In this document: piece after piece, positions 8,506 to 22,551 of the stretch | How positions within the stretch are numbered: the first letter of the stretch is position 1 | How the letters are laid out: each line of letters opens with the position of its first letter | DNA from: a virus | IMG/VR virus record: IMGVR_UViG_3300034407_000318 | Coordinates: 1 to 22,551 of that record | Strand: one strand, 5' to 3' | Length of the DNA: 22,551 nucleotides | Notes under the pieces: model-generated | Told to the model about the DNA's origin: nothing | Databases searched by the model: none | The model's input: the letters and a program-made list of their open reading frames with translations, nothing else | Program-made: the position numbers and the translations under genes

Positions 8506-10026
8506 ATGTCGTTAAGAGGCTATGTTAAACAGTTAAGACCAATTCAAGAAAATAAAGTCGATTATGTGAGTAGGGTTCAGTCATTGATTGAAACCACGAC
8601 CACTGAAGCAACATATGCTGAAATGGCAATTTGTTATCAATATAATTTACTAAGAGCAGATGGTGATAAGGATAGAGCATTATCTCAATCAGGTATAACT
8701 CCAGATAATTTTAAAAAACTAACTCCTGAATTACTAGAAACTGGTAAAAATGTTGCAAGAGATATGGGAAATAGAGGGCCTTGGTTGTTACATTCTGGTG
8801 CAGGCTCTGCCGATACTAATTATGAACAAGGTAGAGATACCACACCTAAAGCAGATTTTACAGGTAATAGTAAAAATTACATATCGTTGAAAAAGAAAGG
8901 GGATAGTGGTTCTGGAGCTCAATTGATGAGTGCAAAATCTGGTGAAGCATCTGGAGTTGTCAAATCTGCAATTGGTCACTATGAAAAAAACACTTCAGAT
9001 AAAATTAGTCAAGATAAAGATTTTTTAGAAGCTGTTGATATTTTAGAAAATAAAATGAAAGAAACTGCAAGAAATGATTTAAATGTAGAAGTTGGTAAGG
9101 GAAAAAAAGATTTTGAAAGTTGGTATACTACTAAAAGTGCTCAAGCAATAAAGTTAAAATCAAACAGAAAATTAAAACCTAAAGATATTGAAAAACACTT
9201 AAAAGCAGAATTATCCTTACTAGGTGCAACTCGTATGAGTGCAAGTGCGAAGAAAAATTTAATTAAAGGTATACCTCCAATAACAAAATCTGAAATTGAT
9301 AATGAATTTAATATGTATCAATCAGATGGTGATGTTAAAGTAGGAGATGTTAAAGTTAGTGCAAGAAATTTAGTAAATGTATCTCCAGATAAATTAACAA
9401 ATCCAAAATTAAAAAAACAAATTGTTGATGTAATACAAACCTCAATAAATGCTACTGAGTGGCAAGATACATTACAAAAATGGTTTAATAATAATAATGA
9501 GTTAAAAAAGTGGTTAGTTTATGAAGCTGCTTCTGGTTTATTTAAGTTTACAGGAAAATACTCTGATGGTAAAAATTATTTTGGTTCACAGTCTGCTGTT
9601 GCAAACAGAATTTTAGTTTTTTCAGATAAAGGTATAGATAGTGAATATGATATATTAAAATATTCAATGAATAGTCCTCAACTCGCAGATAAATTAAGTA
9701 TTTCCTATAAAGGTTCTGGTAGGTCAAAGTATATAAAACTTGGAATATCTGCATCTTATGAGTCTGAACTACCATTTTTACAAGAAGAGATACATCAACT
9801 ACAAAGACAATATGTATTAACAGAGGGAATCTTTAGAACCTTGAAAAATAAATTTTTAGGTTTCGTAAATAGATTAAAAGATATTATAAAAATGTTTTAC
9901 GAAAGAGTTATAAAAAAATTTATAGATGGGATAAAGAACCTTGCAAATAGAGGTATTACTGTTTTTTTAGATGCTCTAGGTTTAGAGGTAGATGGAACAG
10001 TAAGTTTTAAAACTCCAAGTTGGTAG
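8506..10026 (+). CDS. Large phage protein with restriction-endonuclease-like motif
   Basis: This 506-residue protein appears to be a virion-type accessory protein. Residues 113-146 read as a candidate PD-(D/E)XK-type site: TPKADF with Asp117, then YISLKKKG with Lys129 two residues after a Ser in the usual acidic position, then AQLMSAKSGE. The pattern D, spacer, iSLK, QL resembles several phage and restriction-enzyme sequences. The middle is Lys- and Asn-rich. The last 85 residues form hydrophobic/basic amphipathic helices (EGIFRTLKNKFLGF, MFYERVIKKFI), a tail I associate with phage polyvalent proteins. The N-terminus (basic/hydrophobic, then PIQE at 12-15) fits a capsid-targeting leader. GGGAG precedes the start. 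Nuclease activity is inferred only. Confidence 0.6.
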   Translation: MSLRGYVKQLRPIQENKVDYVSRVQSLIETTTTEATYAEMAICYQYNLLRADGDKDRALSQSGITPDNFKKLTPELLETGKNVARDMGNRGPWLLHSGAGSADTNYEQGRDTTPKADFTGNSKNYISLKKKGDSGSGAQLMSAKSGEASGVVKSAIGHYEKNTSDKISQDKDFLEAVDILENKMKETARNDLNVEVGKGKKDFESWYTTKSAQAIKLKSNRKLKPKDIEKHLKAELSLLGATRMSASAKKNLIKGIPPITKSEIDNEFNMYQSDGDVKVGDVKVSARNLVNVSPDKLTNPKLKKQIVDVIQTSINATEWQDTLQKWFNNNNELKKWLVYEAASGLFKFTGKYSDGKNYFGSQSAVANRILVFSDKGIDSEYDILKYSMNSPQLADKLSISYKGSGRSKYIKLGISASYESELPFLQEEIHQLQRQYVLTEGIFRTLKNKFLGFVNRLKDIIKMFYERVIKKFIDGIKNLANRGITVFLDALGLEVDGTVSFKTPSW

Positions 10027-10029
10027 AAT

Positions 10030-11274
10030 ATGCTTAGATTTATAGACACATTAAACGAAAGTAAGGCAGGTAAGAACTTACACCTAGAACACATTGAAGA
10101 TGAGATAATCAATTTTGGTGTTGATGGTGGTAGAGCTGCAATCAACTTTCTGCGTTCACTACGAGATATGTTATCTGGTGGTGCAAGGTCTTCAGTCAGT
10201 ATGACTGTGAAGTGGGACGGAGCTCCTGCAATCTTTACAGGTATTGACCCCTCAGATGGACAGTTCTTTGTTGCAAAGAAATCAGTGTTTAATATTAATC
10301 CAAAACTATACAAGACAAACGCAGAGATAGATGCAGACTTGTCTGGTGCATTGAACTCAAAGTTTAAGATTGCACTTGCAGAGTTTCCAAAGTTAGGTAT
10401 CAAAAATGTATTGCAAGGTGACTTGATGTATACAGATGATATTGAAACAGATACTATAGATGGAGTAAAGTATTATACATTCCAACCTAATACAATCGTG
10501 TATGCAGTTCCAGTAGATTCTGATTTAGGTAAGACTATGAATAAGTCAAAGATAGGTATTGTGTTTCACACAACTTATGAGGGTAAAGAATTACAAAGTA
10601 TGAAGGCTAAGTTTGGTGCAGATACATCTAAACTAAAAAAGACAAGTTCAGTCTGGTTAGATGATGCAACATACAAAGATGTATCTGGTACTGCAACATT
10701 CAATGCAAAAGAAACAGAATCAGTAACAGCTGTCTTATCAAACGTGGGTAAGACATTTCAAAAGATAAACGCACCAATGTTAAGGAGTTTTCTTAAACTC
10801 CAAGATGGTATGACTGGTAACCTTGTCGGTGCGTCATTAAAGACATTTAATAATACTAAAGTTCGACAAGGACAAAAGGTTACCAATCCAAAGAAACACG
10901 CAATAGACTATGCATCTCACGTTCAAAAACACTTTGACAAAATGATGGATAAGGTTAAGACACCAGCTGCAAAGAACAAGTATCAGAAACAACAACGAGA
11001 ATATGTAAGAGAGTTTAGAAAACACGCAAGTAATTTAGGAAATGTCATACTCTTTCAAAATCTTATGATAGATGCAAAGATGCAAATAGTAAGAAAACTA
11101 AATAGTGTTAAGGGTCTAACGGACACTTTTATACGAACTGCAAATGGATATAAAGTAACAAATCCAGAGGGATATGTTGCAATTGATAGAGTTAAAGGTA
11201 ACGCAGTAAAATTAGTAGACCGTATGGAGTTTAGTTATAATAACTTTACGGCTATAAAGGCATGGGACAAATGA
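10030..11274 (+). CDS. Ligase-like nucleotidyltransferase-fold phage protein
   Basis: This 414-residue protein carries marks of the covalent nucleotidyltransferase (DNA/RNA ligase, capping enzyme) superfamily. Motif I is VKWDGAPAI with Lys61-x-Asp63-Gly64. A motif III-like LQGDLMY is at 128-134, a motif IV-like KIGIVFHTTYEG at 174-185, and a possible motif V NAVKLVDR at 391-398. I recognise it as a family of uncharacterised proteins widespread in T4-like phages (I believe DUF6267). If active, Lys61 would form the lysyl-AMP adduct. The N-terminal MLRFIDTLNE could be a targeting leader ending in LxE. Residues 270-350 are Lys/Gln-rich and helical. It starts 4 bases after the previous stop. Confidence 0.68.
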   Translation: MLRFIDTLNESKAGKNLHLEHIEDEIINFGVDGGRAAINFLRSLRDMLSGGARSSVSMTVKWDGAPAIFTGIDPSDGQFFVAKKSVFNINPKLYKTNAEIDADLSGALNSKFKIALAEFPKLGIKNVLQGDLMYTDDIETDTIDGVKYYTFQPNTIVYAVPVDSDLGKTMNKSKIGIVFHTTYEGKELQSMKAKFGADTSKLKKTSSVWLDDATYKDVSGTATFNAKETESVTAVLSNVGKTFQKINAPMLRSFLKLQDGMTGNLVGASLKTFNNTKVRQGQKVTNPKKHAIDYASHVQKHFDKMMDKVKTPAAKNKYQKQQREYVREFRKHASNLGNVILFQNLMIDAKMQIVRKLNSVKGLTDTFIRTANGYKVTNPEGYVAIDRVKGNAVKLVDRMEFSYNNFTAIKAWDK

Positions 11275-11660
11275 AACAGTTTAAAGATTTTTACAACGGA
11301 GAACTATCCGAGTTCAAAGTTATCAGTAAAGCACAAAGAAGAAAGATGGCACTTCGTCTAAAAAGACTTGTCAAATCATCTGCATTTCAGAAAAAAGTAC
11401 AGAAGTCTAAACTTCGTATTGCAAATCCAGCAAAACAAAGAGTTAAAGCTGCAAAGTTAGCTAAACAAAAAGTCATTGATAAGTATTATCCCAAATACAA
11501 AGAGATGGGTCTTGCACAGAGAATGAAGACTGACCAAATGATACAGGCAAAATATAGTGGTATGATTACTGCGTTAACAAAAAAGTTAGCAAAAGTTGTA
11601 AAAGCAAAAGAAATCGCAAAGGTTAAAAAAGCAAGAGAGGCTATAAAACAAGATGCGTAA
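11271..11660 (+). CDS. Lysine-rich basic protein, possible internal head protein
   Basis: This 129-residue protein is roughly one quarter Lys, with repeated AK/KV/KK helical segments and only a few acidic residues, so it probably binds nucleic acid. ATG 11271 gives ATGA coupling with the previous gene; ATG 11262 is an alternative that adds three residues. The N-terminus MKQFKDFY followed by ELSE at 10-13 of this start resembles the leader of T4 internal proteins. The small basic composition also resembles T4 internal (IP) proteins, but no direct homology is claimed. It sits between the ligase-like and NMNAT-like genes, overlapping the latter by 8 bases. Confidence 0.65.
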   Translation: MKQFKDFYNGELSEFKVISKAQRRKMALRLKRLVKSSAFQKKVQKSKLRIANPAKQRVKAAKLAKQKVIDKYYPKYKEMGLAQRMKTDQMIQAKYSGMITALTKKLAKVVKAKEIAKVKKAREAIKQDA

Positions 11661-14400
11661 ATTTCACGAACAGGCTAGTTCAGTAGTATTTACCTTTGGT
11701 AGATTTAATCCACCCACCACAGGACACGAAAAACTATTAGATAAATTAAAGACAGTTGCTGGTACAAGTCGATATGTAGTATTTCCATCTCAATCACAAA
11801 ACCAAAAGAAAGACCCATTACCATTTGCACTTAAAGTTGCATACATGAGGAAGATGTTTCCTAAACATTCTAGAAGTATACTTGCTGACAAAAAAGTATA
11901 CAACGCATTTGATATAGTTGTCAAGTTATATAATGAAAAATATACAGATGTTACAATGGTTGTTGGTTCAGATAGAGTAAAAGAGTTTCAAAGTATATTA
12001 GACAAGTATAATGGTGTGACTGGTAAAAGACATGGTTTCTATAAGTTCAATACAATTAATGTAGTAAGTGCTGGAGAGCGTGACCCAGATGCAGAGGGTG
12101 TTACTGGAATGTCTGCTTCTAAAATGAGAGCAGCTGCATCACTAGGTGACAGTAAATCATTTATGATGGGATTACCAAAAGGTTTCAAAGATGGACAGAA
12201 GTTATTTGATGATGTAAGAAAGTATATGGGTATTCGTGAAGAAAGAGATATGGGTTTAATGACAGACTATGAAGAACTCAGAGATGCATATCTTACAGGA
12301 GATGTTTGGAATATAGATGACCTTATAGAAGCAAGAGGTATTACAGGTAAAATTATTCGTAGAGGAACAAACTATGTATCATTCGTAGATGAGGATAACA
12401 AAGTACACAAAGCTTGGTTACACGAAATCAATGTAAATGAAAATCCATTCAAAGGTGGTATGTTAGACCCATCAAAATTTATATCAAAGATTAGAGGTAA
12501 ATTAGATAGTAGAATTATATCAAATGTTATCAAAAAGTATATGGACGGAGTTGATAAAGGTAAAGATAAAGGTGGTGACCCAAGAACAACTGGAAAAAAC
12601 TCTAAGAATAGATTAATACAAGATATTGCTATACAGTATGGTTTAGAACGAAAATACGGAATGAATCCAAGAGAGATAGTTAAGTATATTAACAAATTAG
12701 TCAGTAAAGGTAAACTTAATAGAAAGTATACAGTAGAAGTAAAACAAGACAAAGACATTAAAGATAGAGAAGGTACGCAACCAGCAAAGTATTATGCAAA
12801 AGACACAGAGGGTGATGCAATGGCACCATCTACAAAGAAAAAAAGAGCAGCCCACTTTGCGAAAAAGAAGAAAGGCCCTGCTCCAGGCGATGCGTCTGCA
12901 ACAACCAGACCTTCTAAACATACAAATAAGTTTAAACAAATGTATGGAGAGAAGTTAGGTAAGAACGCAGATATGGGTGATTACATAGATGACTTTGAGA
13001 AATCAGACTCACCACAGTTTAAGGGTAAGTCAAAAGAAAAACGCAAAGAGATGGCAATAGCCGCATACTTATCAAGGAATGAGGAAATGGAAAAACTAGA
13101 TGAAAAAATAGCAGGTTTAGTAACCAAAGCAAAGAAATCAGGTATGCCCTATGGTATCCTAAAAAAAGTATATGACAGAGGAATGGCTGCATATAAAACT
13201 GGACACAGGCCAGGAACTACTGCACAACAGTGGGCATTTGCGAGAGTTAATTCATTTACAACAAAGAGTGCTGGAACTTGGGGTAAAGCAGACAAAGACC
13301 TTGCAGATAAAGTAAGAGGTGAAGAAGTTGATAAAGACTTTGGTATGATACCAAAGAAGAAGAAAAAAGGACATGAAGTTCTTGGGACTGGAGGCCCATT
13401 TGCATCTGGTGAGTCAGTCAAAGAATGGTTTGAATCTAATATTACCAGAGCAAAATATCAGATGAAACATGGAGATGACTGGTGGTGGAAGATGAACGAA
13501 GTCCACGATAAGTTATTAGAGAAACTAGATGAAAGTTGTTGTGAGGATTGTATTACAGAAGAAGAAAAACCTTGTCCACCAGCAACACAAGATGTAAAGT
13601 TAAACACCAAGAACAGAGATTTAACAGTTAAGAACCATATGTATGGCCCACTCAATGTAGATGAGCCTGGGGATTACTGGGAAAAGATTGCAAAGAAGTG
13701 GGACACAACAACAGAAGCTGCAAAGAAGTCATTATGTGGAAACTGTGTTGCATTTGACATATCACCAAGAATGAAAGAGTGTATGCCTGGCGAAACATCA
13801 GATGGTGATGGAGAACTAGGATATTGTTACATGCATCATTTCAAATGTCATTCTGCAAGAAGTTGTGAAACTTGGGCAAAGGGTGGCCCTATCAAATCAG
13901 ATGAGAAGTCATATGATTGGCAAAGTAAGAATGAAGACCTCAAAGAGAAGGGGCCAGGATTATGGGCAAATATTCATAAGAAGAGAAAAGAAGGTAGACC
14001 AATGAGAAAGAAGGGTGAGAAGGGAGCACCTACACCAGCACAACTAAAAAGAGCACAAGGTGAAAACAAACTACACAACTTCAAAGAGTTTCAATTAAGA
14101 AACGCATGGGGTGAAATAACTGAGAAATCAGAGTATCAAGGAAGACCTGTCGAACTAAATAATCCTACAAAGGGTGATACAAAAAAATACAAGGTCTATG
14201 TAAAGAACGATAAGGGTAATGTGGTCAAAGTAGAATACGGTGACCCAAATATGTCTATTAAAAGAGATGACCCAGCAAGAAGAAAAGCATTTAGAGCAAG
14301 ACATGGTTGTGACGACAATCCAGGCCCTAAATGGAAAGCAAAATATTGGTCATGTAAGTTTTGGAGTACCAAATCTGTAACAGACTTAATGAAGGGGTAA
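11653..14400 (+). CDS. 915-residue multidomain protein with NMNAT-like N-terminal domain
   Basis: Several separable parts are visible. Residues 10-195 form a HIGH-type nucleotidyltransferase: GRFNPPTTGH at 16-25, VVGSDR at 103-108, and GMSASKMR at 152-159 matching the distal S-x-S/T-x-x-R motif of NMN/cytidylyl transferases. Residues 390-435 hold a basic segment (TTRPSKHTNKFKQMYGE) common in phage proteins. Residues 486-556 form the GMPYGILKKVYDRGMAAYKTGHRPGTT region. Residues 693-746 hold a cysteine cluster (Cys695, 698, 710, 725, 732, 738), possibly Fe-S or zinc. GLWANIHKKR is at 769-778. The C-terminus (about 829-905) has DPNMSIKRDDPARRKAFRARH. This architecture resembles phage polyvalent proteins delivered with DNA. 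The function of the later domains is unknown; the NMNAT-like call is the firmest. Confidence 0.75.
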   Translation: MRKFHEQASSVVFTFGRFNPPTTGHEKLLDKLKTVAGTSRYVVFPSQSQNQKKDPLPFALKVAYMRKMFPKHSRSILADKKVYNAFDIVVKLYNEKYTDVTMVVGSDRVKEFQSILDKYNGVTGKRHGFYKFNTINVVSAGERDPDAEGVTGMSASKMRAAASLGDSKSFMMGLPKGFKDGQKLFDDVRKYMGIREERDMGLMTDYEELRDAYLTGDVWNIDDLIEARGITGKIIRRGTNYVSFVDEDNKVHKAWLHEINVNENPFKGGMLDPSKFISKIRGKLDSRIISNVIKKYMDGVDKGKDKGGDPRTTGKNSKNRLIQDIAIQYGLERKYGMNPREIVKYINKLVSKGKLNRKYTVEVKQDKDIKDREGTQPAKYYAKDTEGDAMAPSTKKKRAAHFAKKKKGPAPGDASATTRPSKHTNKFKQMYGEKLGKNADMGDYIDDFEKSDSPQFKGKSKEKRKEMAIAAYLSRNEEMEKLDEKIAGLVTKAKKSGMPYGILKKVYDRGMAAYKTGHRPGTTAQQWAFARVNSFTTKSAGTWGKADKDLADKVRGEEVDKDFGMIPKKKKKGHEVLGTGGPFASGESVKEWFESNITRAKYQMKHGDDWWWKMNEVHDKLLEKLDESCCEDCITEEEKPCPPATQDVKLNTKNRDLTVKNHMYGPLNVDEPGDYWEKIAKKWDTTTEAAKKSLCGNCVAFDISPRMKECMPGETSDGDGELGYCYMHHFKCHSARSCETWAKGGPIKSDEKSYDWQSKNEDLKEKGPGLWANIHKKRKEGRPMRKKGEKGAPTPAQLKRAQGENKLHNFKEFQLRNAWGEITEKSEYQGRPVELNNPTKGDTKKYKVYVKNDKGNVVKVEYGDPNMSIKRDDPARRKAFRARHGCDDNPGPKWKAKYWSCKFWSTKSVTDLMKG

Positions 14401-14404
14401 AGTA

Positions 14405-15757
14405 ATGAGATACAGTAAATCAATGATAGAAGCAGTCAAACAAGTAGGTTTGTATGAAGCTCTCGATTATGCAATCGTAGATGGTGATAATAAAATCATA
14501 GGATTGTATAAAGGTAATATGGCAAAGAAACACGCACAGATGAATATGAAAGGTGCAGAAAGACAAGTTGGTGTTAAGAAACCCCTTAAAATAATGCCAG
14601 TGAGTAATAAGAAAAAAGGTGATACAGTCATAGGTATCGGTGAACTAACTGATAAAGACAGAGAAGCTATTGATGAAGATGTAAAGAACGCACTTGCTGG
14701 ATTTGATAATCGTATTAGAGATGGTGGAATGGATAGAAAAGATTTCATCAAAGCAAAAGAGTTGTATAAAAGAAAAGATGTTAAGGGATTAAGAAAACAT
14801 ATTTACAGTTTAGACACATCACCTTTAGAGGTTGTGATGAATCTTATATCAATACAAGACAGACCATTCTTTGATAAGATGTATCCAAATACAAGAGGTG
14901 GAGAGTTCTTAGCCAAGATTGCATACGACCACAGAAAACTGGACGAAAATCTTGATGAGAATAAAGATGACGAAAAGAAAAGAATGAAGGGTGCAAAACT
15001 AAAACTCAAGATGGGTGATGAAGTAATCAAAGAAGACGGACACACAGATGTATCAAGTGCAGTTCGTCAGTGTAAGACAATCGTAGAAGATGCAACACAG
15101 ATGATGGGTAAGTTACAATCTATGAATGGTGAAGAATCATTACCTACATGGTGGACAAACAAACTTGCAGTTGCATCAAACAGTATGAACAAAATAAGAG
15201 ATTATCTACTTGTCCCAAGTATGCAAAATGAAAGAATGGAAAAGGGTATTGATAAACTTCCAAGACAATTCTTAAACCCAGATAAAGAAGTAATGGTTAT
15301 GAAGAAGAACAAAGTAATTGTGATTGATAAGAAAGACCAAGACAGATATATGAAACAGGGTTGGGAACTTGCAGAAGTATTAGACAAAGAAGATGAACCT
15401 AAAGTCAAAGAAGTAATTAAGAAGTTAAAAGGTGCAAGTAAAGCTCATGCTGGTCAAGCAAAAGACCTAGAGAAAGCAGTGAGTGAAACTACAATTACAG
15501 GTAAAGATTTATTAGAAAATAAATATAAAGAAGAAAAGAACGGAGCTCAACATTTTTCCAAGATAGAAGAAGACAATTATGTTTGGAATTTTGTATATGA
15601 TGACTTTGGAAGAACTAAACTCACTACTGAACCAGATAAGGCAACGCACTTGGTTTATACTATGGAGGGAAAAGACAATCCTCAACTCTTGAAAATCAGT
15701 GAGAAGGAAATTTTAGATTACAAAAAAGGAGAAACTAATGAAGTATCTAAAAAGTAA
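14405..15757 (+). CDS. 450-residue virion-type accessory protein
   Basis: No enzyme fold is assigned. Recognisable phage segments are a short alpha/beta domain at about 20-66 (YAIVDGDNKIIGLYKG), a helix with LPTWWTNKLAVASNSMNKIRDYLL at about 252-276 that recurs in virion-type proteins of marine myoviruses, and a small beta segment (VMVMKKNKVIVIDKKD, about 298-313) that recurs in the same context. The leader contains IEAV and GLYEA, two possible (L/I)-x-E type prohead-protease sites. An AAGGGG ribosome site lies upstream. The 3' end overlaps the next gene by 20 bases. A role as a packaged internal protein is inferred from its neighbours and N-terminus. Confidence 0.65.
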   Translation: MRYSKSMIEAVKQVGLYEALDYAIVDGDNKIIGLYKGNMAKKHAQMNMKGAERQVGVKKPLKIMPVSNKKKGDTVIGIGELTDKDREAIDEDVKNALAGFDNRIRDGGMDRKDFIKAKELYKRKDVKGLRKHIYSLDTSPLEVVMNLISIQDRPFFDKMYPNTRGGEFLAKIAYDHRKLDENLDENKDDEKKRMKGAKLKLKMGDEVIKEDGHTDVSSAVRQCKTIVEDATQMMGKLQSMNGEESLPTWWTNKLAVASNSMNKIRDYLLVPSMQNERMEKGIDKLPRQFLNPDKEVMVMKKNKVIVIDKKDQDRYMKQGWELAEVLDKEDEPKVKEVIKKLKGASKAHAGQAKDLEKAVSETTITGKDLLENKYKEEKNGAQHFSKIEEDNYVWNFVYDDFGRTKLTTEPDKATHLVYTMEGKDNPQLLKISEKEILDYKKGETNEVSKK

Positions 15758-16391
15758 AAGTGGTAGTCTTGAAAATTCCATACTAAATGTTTGGAGTGAG
15801 GCTGCAAAGAAAGAAGGAAACGCATTTGGACAAGCTGTAACAAGTGCAAAAGAAAAGGGTGACAAATCATTCATGTTTGCTGGAAAGAAATATGATGTTG
15901 AAGAAACCTTAAAAAGAATAAAAGAAACAAACAAGAACGACAAATCAGATGACGGTGAAGGAATGGACGCAGTTCAACCTAAAGCTGTTAAGAAGAAGTT
16001 CAAAGACAGAAAAGACAAAGATATCGACAATGATGGTGATGTAGATTCTACAGATAAGTATCTTCATAAGAGAAGAAAAGCAGTATCTAAAGCAATCAGT
16101 AAAGAGAACTTTGAAGTGGGTACAAAAGCAAGAACAGACCACACACTTAATGTTACTCCAGGCCAATCACCAGAAGAGTTTGACCAACAGGTAAGTATAA
16201 TGCATAAGAAGAAGAACTCAATGCGTGAAGCTCTTGCAAAGATGTGGGGTATCAAAGAAGGTAAAAATCCATTTGACAAGAAGGAAGAAGAAGGGTATAA
16301 TAAAGTTAAGAATAAGAAAGAAGCAAAAACTCTAACAGGTAAAGCAGAAACGAAAGTGGAAGTAGAACCGAAAATGGAAAAAAAGAAATAA
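15738..16391 (+). CDS. EF-hand-loop protein of the virion-type cluster
   Basis: This 217-residue, Lys/Glu-rich protein contains one complete EF-hand/dockerin-like calcium loop. Asp95, Asp97, Asp99, Gly100, Asp101, Val102 and Asp106 fit D-x-D-x-D-G-x-V-x-x-x-D, followed by KYLHKRRKAVSKAI. Upstream, NAFGQAVTSAKEKGDKSFMF (29-48) is a short conserved-looking helix-strand unit. Near 152-170, SIMHKKKNSMREALAKMW is another phage-typical helix. The C-terminal 45 residues are low complexity and charged. AAGGAG precedes the start. A perfect sigma70-type promoter lies within its 3' part. It is probably a virion or internal protein; calcium binding is predicted. Confidence 0.65.
   Translation: MKYLKSKSGSLENSILNVWSEAAKKEGNAFGQAVTSAKEKGDKSFMFAGKKYDVEETLKRIKETNKNDKSDDGEGMDAVQPKAVKKKFKDRKDKDIDNDGDVDSTDKYLHKRRKAVSKAISKENFEVGTKARTDHTLNVTPGQSPEEFDQQVSIMHKKKNSMREALAKMWGIKEGKNPFDKKEEEGYNKVKNKKEAKTLTGKAETKVEVEPKMEKKK
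16273..16301 (+). promoter_or_regulatory. Perfect sigma70-type promoter inside a late-type gene
   Basis: TTGACA at 16273-16278 and TATAAT at 16296-16301, with a 17-base spacer, form a full consensus match. Initiation near 16308 would drive the nucleotidase gene at 16391, letting it be made early despite its late neighbours. Confidence 0.7.
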
Positions 16392-16915
16392 TGAAAGAAA
16401 TATACGAACTGGGTGAAGTAAAAGTAGACAAAGGAGATTTACCAGACATATATTGTGATATGGATATGGTTTTATGTGATTTTATCAAGGGTGCAGATGA
16501 AGCCGTTGGTGGTAGTTTTGTGATGTCTGATAAGGATACTCGTTGGAAGAAGATTGGAAACACTAAAGGTTTCTGGGCAAACTTGCCTTGGTTCAGAGGT
16601 GGTAAGAGATTGTATTCTTTTATCGCAAAATACGACCCATATATACTTTCTGCACATAGTACGAGTGATACAAACTCAAGGTCAGGAAAAAATAAATGGT
16701 TAGACAAGAATACAAAGATTCCTAAAGGTAAGAGGAATATTGTATTAAGAGAACAAAAGAAGAAGTATGCAGTGAACAGAGATGGTAGTTCAAATCTCCT
16801 AATTGATGATTATATAAAAAACATAAAAGAGTGGGAAACTGCTGGTGGTATAGGTATAGTCCATACTGACACTGGAAAAACACTTGGAGAACTCAAGAAA
16901 TTGGGTTTCAAATAA
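16391..16915 (+). CDS. HAD-type 5'(3')-deoxyribonucleotidase-like protein
   Basis: This 174-residue protein fits the NT5C-like deoxyribonucleotidase branch of the HAD superfamily. Motif I YCDMDMVLCDF has nucleophile Asp23 and acid/base Asp25. Motif II ILSAHS ends near Ser87. The C-terminal NLLIDDY with Asp139 and Asp140 binds Mg, followed by the usual NIKEWETAGGIGIVH. A Lys in the KGKRNIVL region probably supplies motif III. It would dephosphorylate dNMPs and tune nucleotide pools or salvage. It overlaps the previous gene by one base and lies downstream of its own sigma70-type promoter. A TATAAATA late box follows its stop. Confidence 0.78.
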   Translation: MKEIYELGEVKVDKGDLPDIYCDMDMVLCDFIKGADEAVGGSFVMSDKDTRWKKIGNTKGFWANLPWFRGGKRLYSFIAKYDPYILSAHSTSDTNSRSGKNKWLDKNTKIPKGKRNIVLREQKKKYAVNRDGSSNLLIDDYIKNIKEWETAGGIGIVHTDTGKTLGELKKLGFK

Positions 16916-16916
16916 T

Positions 16917-16924
16917 TATAAATA
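16917..16924 (+). promoter_or_regulatory. T4-type late promoter box TATAAATA
   Basis: An exact late-promoter match lies in the 31-base gap between the nucleotidase and the structural gene at 16947, immediately after the stop codon and upstream of a TAAGGAG ribosome site. Confidence 0.75.
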
Positions 16925-16946
16925 GTTAGAAAATAAGGAGAAACAG

Positions 16947-17819
16947 ATGCCTTTACAGAAGAGTTTCAATATTTTATTGGAAGATGTTAATGCAGCCGAG
17001 AATGATGCATTCTTGCTACTTGACAGAACAGCTGATGGCGTTGATATCGGTGATAAACTCATTGGTGTTGATGCGTCTGCAAGTGAAGCAAAACCATCAG
17101 GATTATCAGAAAATGCTGACGGTAGTGGAGATTATGACAAGAGAGATGTTATCGCAACAGATAGTGGTTGGGTTTTTAAAGCTGGAACACCTAACTCAGG
17201 TAATGATAACAAGGGTGCTCAACCAGAAGTATTACAGTGTATCAGAGGATTAAAAAAGTCAATAGACGTTCCTTCTGCACACCAAATATCAATTGGTAAT
17301 ACATCAGACAGAACAAAGTATTATCCAGACGGAGATACATTTACTGGAGTTGCATCATCAACTTTAGGTGATATAACAGTTTATTGTTATTTCAACGAAC
17401 CAGTTCATGTTACTGGAACACCACAATTACAACTAAAACAAGCAAGTGCGTTAGGTTCAAACTTTGGAACAATAATGGATATCAATACATCAGTATCAAT
17501 TTTCTCTGAAGGTATTGTTGGATTTTCATTACCAGCAAGTACAGACACAAGAACAACTAATGTAACTAATAATACACTAGGTATTAAAGCTGACGACCTT
17601 ATAGGTTTAAATAGTGGAACAATACAGAAGTTAAATGACGAAAGAGTTATATTAGAAAGTGGAGTTGCAAACGACCAAGTATATCTAAAGTTAGATGGAA
17701 CAGATAGTTCAAGTAGAGATAACAATGGTTTTGTTACACACGAAGGTGGTGTTGGAATGGCTGCAGACTTAGGTTTAGCTATTGACTCAAATGCTACAAT
17801 GACTGTTACTGCTGCTTAA
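16947..17819 (+). CDS. Predicted virion structural protein with Ig-like region
   Basis: This 290-residue protein is Thr, Ser, Gly and Asp-rich with few Lys, unlike its upstream neighbours, as usual for secreted or virion beta-proteins. Around residues 138-165 the run ITVYCYFNEPVHVTGTPQL resembles the strand-turn-strand signature (sEPVtVTGTPtL) of bacterial Ig-like/adhesin domains. A decoration, tail or fibre-associated role is likely. It follows a TATAAATA late box and an AAGGAG site. The N-terminus has NILLE at 8-12, a possible (L/I)-x-E cleavage context. No exact phage counterpart is identified. Confidence 0.7.
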   Translation: MPLQKSFNILLEDVNAAENDAFLLLDRTADGVDIGDKLIGVDASASEAKPSGLSENADGSGDYDKRDVIATDSGWVFKAGTPNSGNDNKGAQPEVLQCIRGLKKSIDVPSAHQISIGNTSDRTKYYPDGDTFTGVASSTLGDITVYCYFNEPVHVTGTPQLQLKQASALGSNFGTIMDINTSVSIFSEGIVGFSLPASTDTRTTNVTNNTLGIKADDLIGLNSGTIQKLNDERVILESGVANDQVYLKLDGTDSSSRDNNGFVTHEGGVGMAADLGLAIDSNATMTVTAA

Positions 17820-17826
17820 TAAAACG

Positions 17827-17834
17827 TATAAATA
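17827..17834 (+). promoter_or_regulatory. T4-type late promoter box TATAAATA
   Basis: An exact late-promoter match lies in the 36-base gap before the coiled-coil gene at 17856. The expected start site would be only a few bases from the gene. Confidence 0.7.
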
Positions 17835-17855
17835 AAAATAAAGTGAGATTATATT

Positions 17856-18065
17856 ATGGTAAATGAAGATACTATTAAAAAAAGAATTGCAGCTCTTGAT
17901 AGTGATATCAAAGTAATGACAAATACTATTCAAGAGATAGATGCTAAGAAACAGGAAGCAATCGCAAACTTGAACGCACTACATGGTGCAAAACAACAAT
18001 GCGAAAGTTTCTTAAAAGAATTACATAATGATGACCAGACTGCTTCGGCTGTTACTGGTTCGTGA
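17856..18065 (+). CDS. Small coiled-coil protein, late
   Basis: This 69-residue protein has a heptad-like helix over residues 5-55 (Ile, Leu and Met at core positions, including Leu14, Ile18, Met21 and Ile25) and a short polar tail. No enzymatic motif is seen. It has its own TATAAATA box and is followed by two hairpins, so it is probably a separate late transcript. Upstream GTGAG gives a weak ribosome site. A structural linker or assembly helper is likely; the exact role is unknown. Confidence 0.65.
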   Translation: MVNEDTIKKRIAALDSDIKVMTNTIQEIDAKKQEAIANLNALHGAKQQCESFLKELHNDDQTASAVTGS

Positions 18066-18083
18066 TGTGGGAAATTACCCACA
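18066..18083 (+). other. Hairpin after the coiled-coil gene
   Basis: TGTGGG at 18066-18071 pairs with CCCACA at 18078-18083 across a six-base loop. There is no U-tract of its own. It lies nine bases before a second GC hairpin with a T-run, so it may assist termination or protect the mRNA 3' end. Confidence 0.5.
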
Positions 18084-18091
18084 GTAACATT

Positions 18092-18110
18092 CCCCAATTA
18101 AGGGGTTTTT
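18092..18110 (+). terminator. Short intrinsic terminator CCCC-loop-GGGG-TTTTT
   Basis: CCCC (18092-18095) and GGGG (18102-18105) form a four-pair stem with loop AATTAA, followed directly by five T. It is short but has the classical form. The ribosome site of the next gene starts three bases later, so read-through or processing must supply that gene. Confidence 0.5.
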
Positions 18111-18125
18111 ATAAGGAGAAGCCAA

Positions 18126-18608
18126 ATGGCCGATAAAAAAATTACAGCGCTTACTGACTTAAGCACTGGAGTTGCTGGTGCAGACTTACTTCATGTTGTT
18201 GATGACCCTACAGGTACACCGATTAACAAGAAAGTTTCTGTAACAAACTTCGTAAATAACTTACCAACTTTCATAGGATTTTCAAATTCTGTGCAAGACA
18301 TATCTTCTGCTGTTACTACAGCAATCTCAATCACAACTGCATTGACATTGTTAGAAACAACAGGTACAAACGCTGCTACAACACTTGCTGATGGAACAGT
18401 GGTTGGACAAATCAAGATAATCGTTCACGATACTGCTGGTGGTACATCAGAGATGACACCTGCTGACCCAATGGGTTATATTGATGTTGACTTTGCATCT
18501 TTAGGTGATTCCGTAACATTAGTTTGGAGTGGAACAAAATGGGCTGCATTAGCAAACACTGCGTTGGCTGCTGATGACGGTATCATTGAAATCACTGCAA
18601 CTGACTAA
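18126..18608 (+). CDS. Predicted virion structural protein (MADKKITALTDL type)
   Basis: This 160-residue protein has an N-terminus (KKITALTDL, then DLLHVVDDPTGTPINKKVS) that I recognise as typical of structural proteins in marine myoviruses and in tail-fibre-like proteins. The rest is Thr/Ala/Gly-rich and beta-like, ending with VTLVWSGTKWAAL, a common fibre/baseplate-type closing strand pair. It has no catalytic motif. AAGGAG precedes the start. It lies between two hairpin terminators, so its mRNA is bounded on both sides. Virion location is well supported by family appearance; the exact part is not known. Confidence 0.72.
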   Translation: MADKKITALTDLSTGVAGADLLHVVDDPTGTPINKKVSVTNFVNNLPTFIGFSNSVQDISSAVTTAISITTALTLLETTGTNAATTLADGTVVGQIKIIVHDTAGGTSEMTPADPMGYIDVDFASLGDSVTLVWSGTKWAALANTALAADDGIIEITATD

Positions 18609-18622
18609 TTTAGTCGCTCACT

Positions 18623-18655
18623 ATAGTGGAGGGGAAACTCTCCACTATCTTTTTA
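18623..18655 (+). terminator. Strong GNRA-capped intrinsic terminator
   Basis: ATAGTGGAG at 18623-18631 pairs with CTCCACTAT at 18640-18648. The stem extends by a G-U and a G-C pair to a GAAA tetraloop (18634-18637). It is followed by CTTTTTAT. This is an 11-bp stem with a U-tract, ending the 18126 transcript. Confidence 0.75.
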
Positions 18656-18671
18656 TAATAAGGAAGTAGAT

Positions 18672-19124
18672 ATGAAATCATTTAAAAATTATATTAAAGA
18701 AGTTGCTGGAGCAGGGCCAGGTGGTGGAGATGCTACAGATATGGCAGTTGATGTCGATACTGGTATGTCTGCTGGTGATGTTACCAACCCAGATACTCTA
18801 AGAAAATTAAATGCATTTTTAGGTTCTATAGGTAATATGGAATATCTACTACCAGAACACGCACTTAATCGTTTAAGAACCAGTTTGATGAAAGTTGGAT
18901 TATCCTTTGGTGAAATACCAGCAATGGAAGGTTCAAGTGGTTCATTTGACTTACCTTTAACCAGATTTGGTGGAAGATTCGGTAAAGATGAAAATACCCC
19001 TAGTGATGAATTTATTAATGATGATGGTATCTCACACATTATCGAAGGTGGACTTGCTCTTAAAATACAGTACGAGATGTCACCAAAAAATAGTTCATGT
19101 AGGGTTTTTGCAAAGATAGCATAA
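18672..19124 (+). CDS. Predicted head/internal protein with capsid-targeting-like leader
   Basis: This 150-residue protein opens MKSFKNYIKE followed by VAGAG, the closest match in the window to the T4 internal-protein leader (MKTYQEFIAE then A). The (I)-K-E/V junction fits the (L/I)-x-E rule of T4 prohead protease gp21. A Gly/Asp-rich linker (15-38) follows, then a mixed helical and beta domain (NAFLGSIGNMEYLLPEHALNRL, then GSSGSFDLPLTRFGG) that resembles conserved proteins of pelagiphages. An AAGGAAG site lies upstream, after a strong terminator. A packaged or head-associated role is inferred; coding is secure. Confidence 0.68.
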   Translation: MKSFKNYIKEVAGAGPGGGDATDMAVDVDTGMSAGDVTNPDTLRKLNAFLGSIGNMEYLLPEHALNRLRTSLMKVGLSFGEIPAMEGSSGSFDLPLTRFGGRFGKDENTPSDEFINDDGISHIIEGGLALKIQYEMSPKNSSCRVFAKIA

Positions 19125-19128
19125 CTCA

Positions 19129-19491
19129 ATGTACGAGAACATTACGAGTGATAATGTTATGATGTACGCAATTAGACATTATAATAACCCTCAGTGTGAA
19201 GGTGAAAAAGAATTTCAAGATGATTTGAAACGGTTCAAATACATCAAAAGACTTCTCAGAAAATATCACGAAACTGATATCCTCAAAGAAAGATTACTTC
19301 TCAATCATTTTATCGTATTAAACAATGTATTCGGTGCAGAAGCTTGTGCAACACTACTATTGTTCAAAATACAGAAAGAATACTGGTCTACACTCAAGTC
19401 ATTTTTATTATACCTAAATATACTTAGAGAAGATGAACTTAAAGATATTGAAGAAGATATCAAAGTACAACAAGTTTTAAAGGAACTATAA
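19129..19491 (+). CDS. Conserved phage protein, all-helical, unknown function
   Basis: This 120-residue, probably all-helical protein contains FQDDLKRFKYIKRLLRKYH, then ERLLLNHFIVLNNVFGAEA, then QKEYWSTLKSFLLYLNIL. I recognise this as a small family conserved in T4-like marine phages (possibly DUF7207), without a known function. It begins 4 bases after the previous stop with no clear ribosome site, and its stop is coupled to the next start (TAATG). It is therefore probably translated with its neighbours as a unit. There is no transmembrane segment, although the second helix is quite hydrophobic. Confidence 0.68.
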   Translation: MYENITSDNVMMYAIRHYNNPQCEGEKEFQDDLKRFKYIKRLLRKYHETDILKERLLLNHFIVLNNVFGAEACATLLLFKIQKEYWSTLKSFLLYLNILREDELKDIEEDIKVQQVLKEL

Positions 19492-20105
19492 TGGGTAGAG
19501 CTGTAGATTTATTTGTAACTTATAGATTTTTAAAGTTACTTACAACACCATTTGAAAAGACAGATGCATTCAAGTTAGGTATCATAGACAAAGATGGACA
19601 TAGAATAAAAATACCCAAATCTAGTAAACCTGCTGTAGAACTTACCACGTCTGAACTTAAAAACGCATACACAATTCTCCATAAACTTATCTTTAATATT
19701 AAGAAGTTATTTGCAAAGGTGCCAGGCTTAAGAACAAAGGTTGGTACATATGCAGCTGCATTATTCTTATTGAAAGATACATTCAAAGAACACGTTGAAG
19801 ACCCAGATATGTTTGAGAAAGAGTTTATGAAATATCTCAAAGAAAATAATATAGAGTTAGATAGAGAGATATCAGAGGAAGTTATAGGGTTTGGAGAGGT
19901 ATTACCCAAAGGTGAGTATGTTCTAAAGAACGATATACTAAATAAAGAAGAAGAAGAATTAACTGCTAAAAAGGGTGATAAGGTCATTGCGTTTGCAGAT
20001 GAATCACCAATAGATACAGTGTTGGGTGTTGAGATATTTCCTGTTGTTCATGTTAAAACCCAAGAAAAAATCTATGTAAGTTTGGAGGATATAACAGATG
20101 ACTAA
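19491..20105 (+). CDS. Conserved phage protein with membrane-like helix, unknown
   Basis: This 204-residue protein begins MGRAVDLFVTYRFLKLLTTPF, a pattern I associate with conserved proteins next to structural genes of T4-like marine phages. Helices around 50-105 include VGTYAAALFLLKDTF, which is hydrophobic but short for a membrane span. The C-terminal half is acidic and beta-like (KGEYVLKNDILNKEEEELTAKKGDKVIAF, then GVEIFPVVHVKTQEKIYVSLEDI), like a small barrel. An AAGGAA site and TAATG coupling support the start. The function is unknown; a virion-assembly role is likely from context. Confidence 0.65.
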   Translation: MGRAVDLFVTYRFLKLLTTPFEKTDAFKLGIIDKDGHRIKIPKSSKPAVELTTSELKNAYTILHKLIFNIKKLFAKVPGLRTKVGTYAAALFLLKDTFKEHVEDPDMFEKEFMKYLKENNIELDREISEEVIGFGEVLPKGEYVLKNDILNKEEEELTAKKGDKVIAFADESPIDTVLGVEIFPVVHVKTQEKIYVSLEDITDD

Positions 20106-20859
20106 ATGGACAGAAGTAGACGCATACAGTGGACAACCTATGGAAGAAAAAGCACCAACTAATAATGCTGGTTCTGGTAAAGTTGCAATGCCACCTGATG
20201 CAATGATGAAAAAGAAAAAGAAAACATTCTTAGATGCAAGAACAAAAGCATACAAAGAACATCAAAAGAAATTAGAAGCTGCAAGACAAAGAAGAGAAGA
20301 GAGAAAAAAGGCTGCATCTAAAATAAATGAAGAACAGATTGATGAAATGAAAAAAGTAGAGATAACACTTAATAATCCAAATGATGTTAAAAAGATAAAA
20401 AAAGATGTGATAGATTTAACTAACAAAAAAAGAAAAGTTAATATTACAATGAAACAAATGGGTAAAAAATTAATAATTGATGGTGGTGACTATGATATCA
20501 ATAGAGAAGTTAAAGATATAAGAAACTTCATAGGTTACAAAAGTGCAAAGGTTGTAGAAGATATACAACCAAAAACATTCTCTCAAAAAATAAAAGAACA
20601 AGTTACTGCATTTGGTAGAGAATCATTCCTTGCAGAGAACAATATGGACGTAATCAAAAGTATTGTCAAGAGTAAGGGTGCAAAAGATTTGAAAATGAAA
20701 GATGGTAAATTAAAGATGGACGCTTTTACTGCATCTGCAATTGCACAAGTATATGACAAAGTTAATCCAACCAATAAGAAGAAAATGGAAGACCTTGCAA
20801 ATGGTAAGAAATCAGACTTAATGAAACTACAAAAACTTGCAATGAAATTCGTAAAGTAG
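20098..20859 (+). CDS. Basic virion-type protein with conserved C-terminal phage domain
   Basis: This 253-residue protein has three parts. Residues 30-80 are a highly charged helix (MMKKKKKTFLDARTKAYKEHQKKLEAARQRREERKK). Residues 85-150 form an alternating beta/alpha domain (KKVEITLNN, KKLIIDGGDYDI). The C-terminal 70 residues (DVIKSIVKSKGAKDLKMKDGKLKMDAFTASAIAQVYDKVNPTNKKKMEDL) are a segment that recurs at the ends of phage virion-type proteins and is recognisable by FTASAI..VYDKVN. GGAGG precedes the start. There is no signal peptide or catalytic motif. It shares this module style with the large proteins upstream, suggesting module shuffling. Confidence 0.66.
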   Translation: MTKWTEVDAYSGQPMEEKAPTNNAGSGKVAMPPDAMMKKKKKTFLDARTKAYKEHQKKLEAARQRREERKKAASKINEEQIDEMKKVEITLNNPNDVKKIKKDVIDLTNKKRKVNITMKQMGKKLIIDGGDYDINREVKDIRNFIGYKSAKVVEDIQPKTFSQKIKEQVTAFGRESFLAENNMDVIKSIVKSKGAKDLKMKDGKLKMDAFTASAIAQVYDKVNPTNKKKMEDLANGKKSDLMKLQKLAMKFVK

Positions 20860-20866
20860 ACAATGA

Positions 20867-22551
20867 ATGAAAAAATTGAAAAGTTTCAGGTCTTATTTCA
20901 AAGAGTATGGAGCTCTTAATCCATCACACCCAATAGGAGGTAATTCTTCTGGGCCTGGTATGGGTCAGTATGTTCCAAGTGCAGACCTGAATCTTCGAGC
21001 ATCAAAACAAGCAGTATCAGGTCGCAAAATTGCAAAATTTGTTACAGGTAATGATGTAACCTTTCAAGGTAAAAAATATAAGAAAGTTGAGTTTGAGGTA
21101 TTAAACGTAAATAATAAAACTCAAAGAGTAGAAATATCATTTATATCTCCACCAGAATTAAAAGACAAAGTAACAATGATACCTTTCCGATTTTTAAGAA
21201 GAGGCCCATTCGTTGCAAGTGAAGAAAAAAATCCAAGAATACCACGCAAGAAAGGTCAACCTGCTGGTTCTAAAAAACATTCCGATTTATACACAGACGA
21301 AAATCCTGTAGGAACAATACATGGATTAGGTTTCAAAGATGTTGAAACTGCAAGAGCAAGTGTAAAGAAGATAGAGGGTTCTGGTAAGAAACACGCACAT
21401 AAGATACAAGCTGCAATCGCAATGGAACAACGTGCAAAAGAGATGGGTAAGACAGCAGAGGCTGCAGTCTATCGTGCATACATTGAGAAGATGAAGAAGA
21501 AAACCAAAGAAATGCAGAAAGAAGATTTCTTAATGACAGAGGATTTTGGAGTTGTAGCAAATCAATCTAAACTATCAGAAATTATCTTTCAAGGAAGTCA
21601 TAAAGCAAAAGAGGGAAAAGAAGTAGACAATATGTATATACCAATGTCAAGTGCATTGTTTAAGAGAGTTTTTCCAAAACAAGTTAGAGTTAGAACTTTT
21701 CATGTAACCTCTCCAGATGGTTTTGAAAGATTATATGATATTCAAAATTCAAAGAAATCTATATCAACATTTGCAAACATGAGTTCTAGAAATATTGCTG
21801 GTGGTATTGCAGAAGGTTCTGGAGTTGTTGCAGAAATAGATGGAAATGCTCTTGTAAGTTCTGCACAAGATTTATTCTCAGTCCCAATAAAAGATGGTAG
21901 AAGATTAATAAGTTATGGTTGGTTAAGGGGGAAGTGGGGTGAAAGAAATCTTGATAAAATAGATAAAGATATGACTGTGCTTTTAAAAGCACTTATTAGA
22001 AAATACGCACCAGAAAGAGCAAAAAAAAGAACCTCTCCTTACTTTACAGATTTTGAAGTTTGGAAAAGTGTAAGAGCAAGTTACGAACACTATAAACATG
22101 GGTCAGATAAAAAACTGCAAAGAGAAGCTGGTAAAAAAATGCAGAAAATAATTAAAGATTATTTAGATGGTGTAGAGAGAGTTCTAAAAAAGAATGCAAC
22201 ACAAGTTCAAGAGATTCTAACAAGATATCTAAAAAGTAGACAAACTGAAGATAACTGGGACGAAATCATAGTAGATGATGTTAATATTCTAAAGGTTTTT
22301 ATAATCTCTGACCACGAGGAAACTGCAATATTTAAGAAAGACCAACTTGACCACGAAGCATATAAAAAAATGCTTGAAGGTACAAAACTACCAGTAGAGA
22401 TTATTGATTCAGTAAAAATGGAAAGATATGTATTAGGAGTTGCAGAGCAAGAAAAAAAGAAAATAACTGAAGAAAGAAACTATAAGAAAGAATATGCAAA
22501 CTATCAGGGTAAACCTGAACAGATTGCAAGAAGGTCTTCAAGAAATAAAGC
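20867..22551 (+). CDS. Large virion-type accessory protein, 3' end beyond window
   Basis: This frame stays open for 561 codons to the window edge, so the C-terminus is missing. The start MKKLKSFRSYFKEYG is again a basic/aromatic leader. Residues 132-213 hold the phage-conserved segment KKHSDLYTDENPVGTIHGL, then KIEGSGKKHAHKIQAAIAMEQRAKEMGKT. Residues 232-360 form another domain with RTFHVT, KKSISTF, GVVAEIDGN and KDGRRLISY; a remote ADP-ribosyltransferase-like fold is conceivable but not shown. Residues 360-561 are helical and charged. ATG 20867 lies 7 bases after the previous stop with no strong ribosome site. It was missed as a closed ORF only because it is cut. Confidence 0.7.
   Translation, partial: MKKLKSFRSYFKEYGALNPSHPIGGNSSGPGMGQYVPSADLNLRASKQAVSGRKIAKFVTGNDVTFQGKKYKKVEFEVLNVNNKTQRVEISFISPPELKDKVTMIPFRFLRRGPFVASEEKNPRIPRKKGQPAGSKKHSDLYTDENPVGTIHGLGFKDVETARASVKKIEGSGKKHAHKIQAAIAMEQRAKEMGKTAEAAVYRAYIEKMKKKTKEMQKEDFLMTEDFGVVANQSKLSEIIFQGSHKAKEGKEVDNMYIPMSSALFKRVFPKQVRVRTFHVTSPDGFERLYDIQNSKKSISTFANMSSRNIAGGIAEGSGVVAEIDGNALVSSAQDLFSVPIKDGRRLISYGWLRGKWGERNLDKIDKDMTVLLKALIRKYAPERAKKRTSPYFTDFEVWKSVRASYEHYKHGSDKKLQREAGKKMQKIIKDYLDGVERVLKKNATQVQEILTRYLKSRQTEDNWDEIIVDDVNILKVFIISDHEETAIFKKDQLDHEAYKKMLEGTKLPVEIIDSVKMERYVLGVAEQEKKKITEERNYKKEYANYQGKPEQIARRSSRNK

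Follow-up and report, generated by a model that had tools for sequence, protein, structure and literature searches.

The question raised by this locus is whether the short leaders with which many of its proteins begin are capsid-targeting sequences of the T4 type, in other words, whether its genes encode a set of proteins packaged in the phage head. The window, by which we mean the whole 22,551-base virus record analysed here, is a genome fragment from a marine T4-like myophage of the Kyanoviridae. Of the annotated genomes, that of Methylophilales phage Melnitz is closest to it (77% DNA identity in the RecA gene, 70% identity in the DUF6267 protein), and the block under study, window 8506-22551, shows broad synteny with Melnitz 12203-23656; part of the block is also present in Stenotrophomonas phage DLP6. 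An initial annotation had proposed that this block encodes a head-packaged, co-injected set of proteins on the basis of basic/hydrophobic leaders, several of which end in (L/I)-x-E, and all the N-termini that it quoted are present where it had placed them.

The likeness to the T4 internal proteins IPI-IPIII and Alt (PMC9026906) lies in a leader of about 10 residues with aromatic or hydrophobic residues at positions 4 and 7 and Glu at position 10, in the (L/I)-x-E site, in a gp21-family protease present in relatives, and in the use of one leader on unrelated proteins. In the T4 IPIII leader, residues 4 and 7 serve targeting, while residues 8 and 10 serve processing (PMC9026906). The features considered here are listed below, with a slash marking the predicted cut.

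8506-8550, plus strand: MSLRGYVKQLRPIQE, an uncertain leader on the protein at 8506-10026; Glu conserved, P3 often Arg
10030-10059, plus strand: leader MLRFIDTLNE/ of the DUF6267 protein; site in 41/41 distinct homologous leaders
10060-11274, plus strand: predicted mature DUF6267 protein (PF19782), a possible nucleotidyltransferase/ligase; Pfam and invariant motifs
11271-11312, plus strand: MKQFKDFYNGELSE/, leader on the small, basic protein at 11271-11660; site in 29/33 distinct homologous leaders
11653-11670, plus strand: MRKFHE/, a short leader on the NMNAT-like protein; shortest in the homologue leader series
11671-14400, plus strand: NMNAT-like nucleotidyltransferase, also containing DUF5824 and other domains; Pfam and PHROGs, orthologues in virion proteomes
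14405-14431, plus strand: MRYSKSMIE/, a candidate leader on the protein at 14405-15757; homologue leaders
16947-16982, plus strand: weak leader candidate MPLQKSFNILLE; close relatives only
18672-18701, plus strand: MKSFKNYIKE/, leader on the protein at 18672-19124; exact fit to the register of T4 internal proteins
20867-20905, plus strand: leader MKKLKSFRSYFKE/ of a large protein running off the window end; strict pattern

The leader pattern in the window and in related genomes

In ten related genomes, 12.8% of genes carry the loose motif used in the initial annotation, (L/I)-x-E by residue 16, as do 10.3% of shuffled N-termini. It is present in 6 of the 15 genes of the block (P=0.008 against the 12.8% background) and in 2/15 genes of the window's upstream half, and the direct comparison of block and upstream half gave Fisher P=0.11. 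By this measure the block stands out mildly; with such a background in related genomes, the loose motif alone was rejected as evidence.

A strict pattern was defined by the T4 register: a hydrophobic or aromatic residue at both P7 and P4, L, I, V, M or F at P3, and Glu at P1. As a positive control it recovers the two MKTYQEFIAE proteins of T4, and in SPO1, the negative control, there was 1 match with 1.0 expected. Within the block, the 18672 and 20867 proteins alone carry the pattern, that is, 2 against 0.10 expected from shuffled N-termini, a count reached in 8/2000 shuffles. We then counted matches in ten whole Kyanoviridae genomes (Melnitz, S-SZBM1, S-SCSM1, S-CREM2, S-PM2, Syn9, S-CRM01, P-SSM2, HTVC008M and C48C1) together with the window. 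Among 2440 called genes 29 matched, compared with a mean of 4.8 and a maximum of 13 in 1000 rounds of shuffling the N-termini of the same genes, and with 7.4 predicted from internal Met positions. Within a single genome, the matches lie on differing protein families, as seen in S-CREM2, S-CRM01, C48C1 and Melnitz.

Conservation of the leaders and nature of the proteins

Homologues were drawn from viral contigs and phage genomes, and their leaders were taken ahead of the conserved cores. In the 10030, 11271 and 11653 families, leaders ended by (L/I)-x-E are far more frequent than in shuffles, even among representatives below 60% identity; since homologous leaders are mutually dependent, these shuffle tests overstate the significance.

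The clearest case is the DUF6267 protein, for which the proposed leader is borne out. The (L/I)-x-E stands directly before the conserved core in 41/41 distinct leaders (mean of 9.5 after shuffling, never above 20 in 5000 runs), a count that omits the orthologues without a leader in S-SZBM1, Syn9, S-PM2, P-SSM2 and S-CREM2. These leaders vary in both sequence and length (MLRFIDTLNE, MISFKQLNE, MIKFLEE and, in DLP6, MMKFTQFLAE). The leader of the 11271 protein is likewise upheld, with L/I at P3 in 29 of 33 distinct leaders (shuffle mean 9.0); its homologue in C48C1 begins MLSFKQFVSE/. Here the ATG at 11271 is the better start, because homologues begin MKTF or MITF, although the list of open reading frames runs the frame to 11262. 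For the 18672 protein, 11 homologues share K2, F4, K5 and E10 without exception but vary in the stretch downstream, and together with the strict pattern this supports the proposed leader.

For two proteins the initial annotation saw no clear cut site, and in both a candidate is present. The 20867 leader fits the strict pattern with Phe at P3 (YFKE/Y), which is retained in the L216 homologue. The NMNAT-like 11653 protein has relatives with leaders such as MRSFKSHITE/, MRKFSDIITE/ and MKKFSELME/, and in this series MRKFHE/ is the shortest form, with a candidate F-x-E site. In its family L/I stands at P3 in 25/33 leaders, most of the others having F or V (shuffle mean 3.7). The register is carried by 6/6 of the cyanophages studied here that have a stand-alone NMNAT-like gene, namely S-SCSM1 (MKSFLQFLKE), Syn9 (MKKFSAFLSE), P-SSM2 (MKSFSQFLTE), S-CRM01 (MKLFNQFFKE), S-CREM2 (MKNFSSFLTE) and S-SZBM1 (MRFRQFIIE); the NMNAT of HTVC008M is without the Glu site.

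The remaining leaders fared less evenly. A leader on the 14405 protein is backed by some homologues (MTRYNKTMSE/A, MTRYTKTMAE/A, MTTYRKSMSE/A), but the proposed GLYE/A site is not; SMIE/A is likelier because these homologues share the form Y-x-K-[ST]-M-x-E/A. Relatives of the 8506 protein conserve [YF]V[RK]QL.P..E, so the Glu stands, but L/I-x-E is not kept and P3 is often Arg; the Melnitz homologue begins MQGFKTFLSE/. The 16947 leader is weak and confined to close relatives, and we rejected this protein as cargo since its orthologues in Melnitz and HTVC008M begin MALWG or MGLWG, without a leader. It can be concluded that the shared capsid-targeting-like leaders hold for a subset (18672, 20867, 10030, 11271, 11653 and 14405), and alignment across homologues supports four of these (10030, 11271, 11653 and 14405).

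As to the proteins themselves, the description of 11653 as NMNAT-like was substantiated by Pfam (CTP_transf_like, PF01467, E=2.6e-6, over the cut-off), with an (H/T)xGH motif in GRFNPPTTGH, and it also matches a PHROG cytidyltransferase (E=4e-88). By sequence it is assigned to the NMN adenylyltransferase/cytidylyltransferase superfamily. About 80 residues at its C-terminus (window 14113-14364) match small proteins of unrelated pelagiphages and of a Flavobacterium phage, and this stretch is a mobile phage domain.

The term ligase-like for the DUF6267 protein has weak support. Its invariant KWDG, EGxV and KLVDR resemble ligase motifs I (KxDG), IV (EGxV) and V. The predicted structure (mean pLDDT 75, pTM 0.62, residues 1-15 below 50) retrieved its own family first from a viral fold library and then, weakly, viral RNA ligases, but comparison with PDB folds gave no match at E<0.001, and no ligase was found by Pfam, by PDB profile search or by hhalign to T4 Rnl2. 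A ligase identity thus rests on the motifs and the weak fold matches. The S-PM2 protein named cytidyltransferase-like also has the DUF6267 fold and PHROG 455 covers both, which links the NMNAT-like and DUF6267 proteins.

A further explanation has to be weighed here, namely that the leaders simply form amphipathic N-terminal helices of an ordinary kind, which resemble one another by composition, start context or descent and are unrelated to head targeting. The commonness of the loose motif in related genomes is in line with it, and similarity within a family is partly plain homology. However, the T4 register is commoner than in shuffles or at internal Met positions, the Glu and the P3 residue next to the core persist although the leaders vary in length and sequence, and proteins detected in virions by mass spectrometry (MS) are enriched for leader bearers (see below). 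We therefore consider ordinary helices improbable.

The prohead protease site and published virion proteomes

Capsid-targeting propeptides of the T4 type require a matching protease in the lineage. We found gp21 (PF03420) in 7/7 T4-like genomes tested, T4 included; it was not found in the window's own 22,551-base record, as expected of a fragment. In the major capsid protein alignment, the T4 cut FLTE/A corresponds to FLAE/A, LSE/A, LGE/A, LGE/I, FLTE/T and LNE/V in relatives. L-x-E is thus kept at the gp23 cut position, and therefore an L-x-E-specific protease is expected in this lineage.

In T4 itself, gene 61.1 (NC_000866, 18966-19130) begins MKTFKEFIKE/DMVAGDSGG, and residues 2-38 of its product match gp23 residues 57-93 around the gp21 cut site (E=2e-4); judged by sequence, the product is a candidate for an unrecognised capsid-targeted protein of T4.

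Virion proteomes have been published for three relatives. The S-CREM2 virion comprises 52 MS-detected proteins (PMC10665884, Table 3), and 5 of the 7 annotated strict-pattern proteins are among them (hypergeometric P=0.009): SAM hydrolase gp6 (MKDFDSFLEE), gp13 (MKDLHSFLTE), APH-like kinase gp14 (MKRFDAFLTE), gp136 (MQTFSMFFSE) and NMNAT-like gp154. The NMNAT of S-SCSM1 is annotated as a virion protein (PMC9602691), and the leader-bearing, NMNAT-like S-SZBM1_140 was detected in virions (PMC9146016). For the three phages together, the detected proteins include 7/12 strict matches, where 17.7% is the base rate of detection (P=0.002), a count that mixes gene calls and annotations and comes from CsCl-purified virions in which contaminants may be included. 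The leaderless DUF6267 proteins S-SZBM1_141 and S-CREM2 gp87 are absent from the accessible virion lists, and the leader-bearing S-SCSM1_30 and S-SZBM1_191 are not given there as MS-detected.

The authors of the proteome papers left undecided whether such proteins are packaged or contaminating. The enzymes, NMNAT-like and others, could be abundant late proteins that co-purify unpackaged, the leader for instance binding the scaffold without retention of the protein. Apart from the contamination named by those authors, the fact that two leader-bearing small proteins went undetected speaks for this. Nevertheless, NMNAT-like proteins recur in the virions of several phages, and the T4-register leader is enriched among detected proteins, an enrichment that contamination does not predict. 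Co-purification is thus an unlikely account, about as unlikely as that of ordinary helices, and the leader favours packaging. For the proteins of the window, packaging is inferred from these relatives.

Two observations concern the same genomes. A small family with a perfect leader, MK[ST]FK[QS]F[LM]SE/SVNISGDFNGNLY, is encoded upstream of the large terminase gene in S-SCSM1 (44215-44535) and S-SZBM1 (122311-122628), and is absent from the accessible virion lists. In MS-detected, Cas9-like S-CREM2 gp12 (OR473000, 7704-10313), a leader-like stretch, LRFASFMAE/A, sits at residues 18-26, after a longer annotated start.

Proposed packaging of enzymes in the phage head

The T4 register, the conservation among homologues, the gp21 protease and gp23 cut position kept in relatives, and the virion detection of orthologues lend good support to capsid targeting of the T4 type, although the initial annotation over-extended it to 16947 and it is uncertain for 8506. 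We regard it as likely, with good confidence, that the leaders are T4-type capsid-targeting propeptides and that the block encodes head-packaged proteins, enzymes included. The aromatic and hydrophobic residues of the leader would attach the protein to the scaffold core of the prohead, gp21 would then cut the leader off after (L/I/F)-x-Glu, and the mature protein would be retained in the head and ejected into the host with the DNA. Among the putative cargo are small accessory proteins, the NMNAT-like nucleotidyltransferase and the DUF6267 protein, which may be a nucleotidyltransferase/ligase; the virus thus probably carries a small enzyme kit delivered with its DNA. In the host, these proteins may act in early NAD or nucleic-acid repair, or in counter-defence; the pairing of an NMNAT-like enzyme with what may be a nucleotidyltransferase/ligase hints at the restoring of NAD or the repair of nucleic acids.

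More tentatively, one could imagine that an enzyme kit, tagged by leaders and injected, is a conserved lineage trait of the Kyanoviridae and of those relatives that infect heterotrophs, and that during the first minutes of infection it counters host defences by restoring NAD or repairing nucleic acids. In this possible but doubtful extension, the kit would comprise the NMNAT-like and DUF6267 proteins, with kinases, SAM hydrolase or a Cas9-like nuclease being lineage-specific.

The targeting mechanism is the known part, being that of T4. The T4 cargo, however, consists of small restriction inhibitors, whereas here it is a conserved enzyme block in another phage family with other hosts, and leaders are as short as six residues, with cleavage predicted by analogy. 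The MS-detected, leader-bearing NMNAT-like proteins of S-SCSM1, S-CREM2 and S-SZBM1 (PMC9602691, PMC10665884, PMC9146016) are orthologues of window 11653, which differs from them in extra C-terminal domains and a shorter leader; no packaging signal is pointed out in the accessible parts of those papers. The giant phages phiKZ and SPN3US (PMC9026906) also have a Glu-specific prohead protease and packaged, ejected proteins, but that protease is a diverged gp21 homologue and the phiKZ site is S/A-x-E, unlike (L/I)-x-E here. In the open-access literature searched, subscription papers being outside its scope, we found no earlier report of a capsid-targeting sequence in cyanophages, nor any that describes it on a conserved block of enzymes in Kyanoviridae, six-residue leaders included.

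T4-like phages are some of the most common viruses in the ocean, and an NMNAT-like enzyme has been reported from their virions in several papers without being explained. The leader makes the question of contaminant or cargo directly testable, allows packaged proteins to be predicted from marine T4-like genome sequences, and flags orphan genes acting at the very start of infection. If the proposed packaging is true, T4 head targeting extends beyond small restriction inhibitors to enzymes of metabolism and repair.

Leader-like starts were also noticed elsewhere. In Melnitz, a RimK-like ATP-grasp enzyme (L001, 82-1131) starts MTQKFSQFITE/ and is a candidate cargo enzyme. A Zeta-toxin-like P-loop kinase has a short leader-like start in both HTVC008M (L009, 11718-12380, MIPFILKE), where its gene lies between the DUF6267 and NMNAT genes, and Melnitz (L002, 15855-16523, MKTFAELQE). 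In KVP40 (NC_005083, 37733-39834), two adjoining genes just past a gp23/gp24 paralogue begin MLGNFDSFLSE/ and MKQFCNFLAE/.

Between the genes of the window, the following T4 late-promoter-like elements were noted.

16917-16924, plus strand: TATAAATA, upstream of 16947
17827-17834, plus strand: TATAAATA, upstream of 17856

The copy number of TATAAATA in the window shows no excess over chance, but 3/3 copies fall within the window's 396 intergenic bases, and this placement, unlike the count, is a suggestive hint of late promoters. The intergenic gaps 18066-18125 and 18609-18671 contain hairpins followed by T runs, resembling intrinsic terminators, and in both the hairpins are followed by AAGGAG-like ribosome sites.
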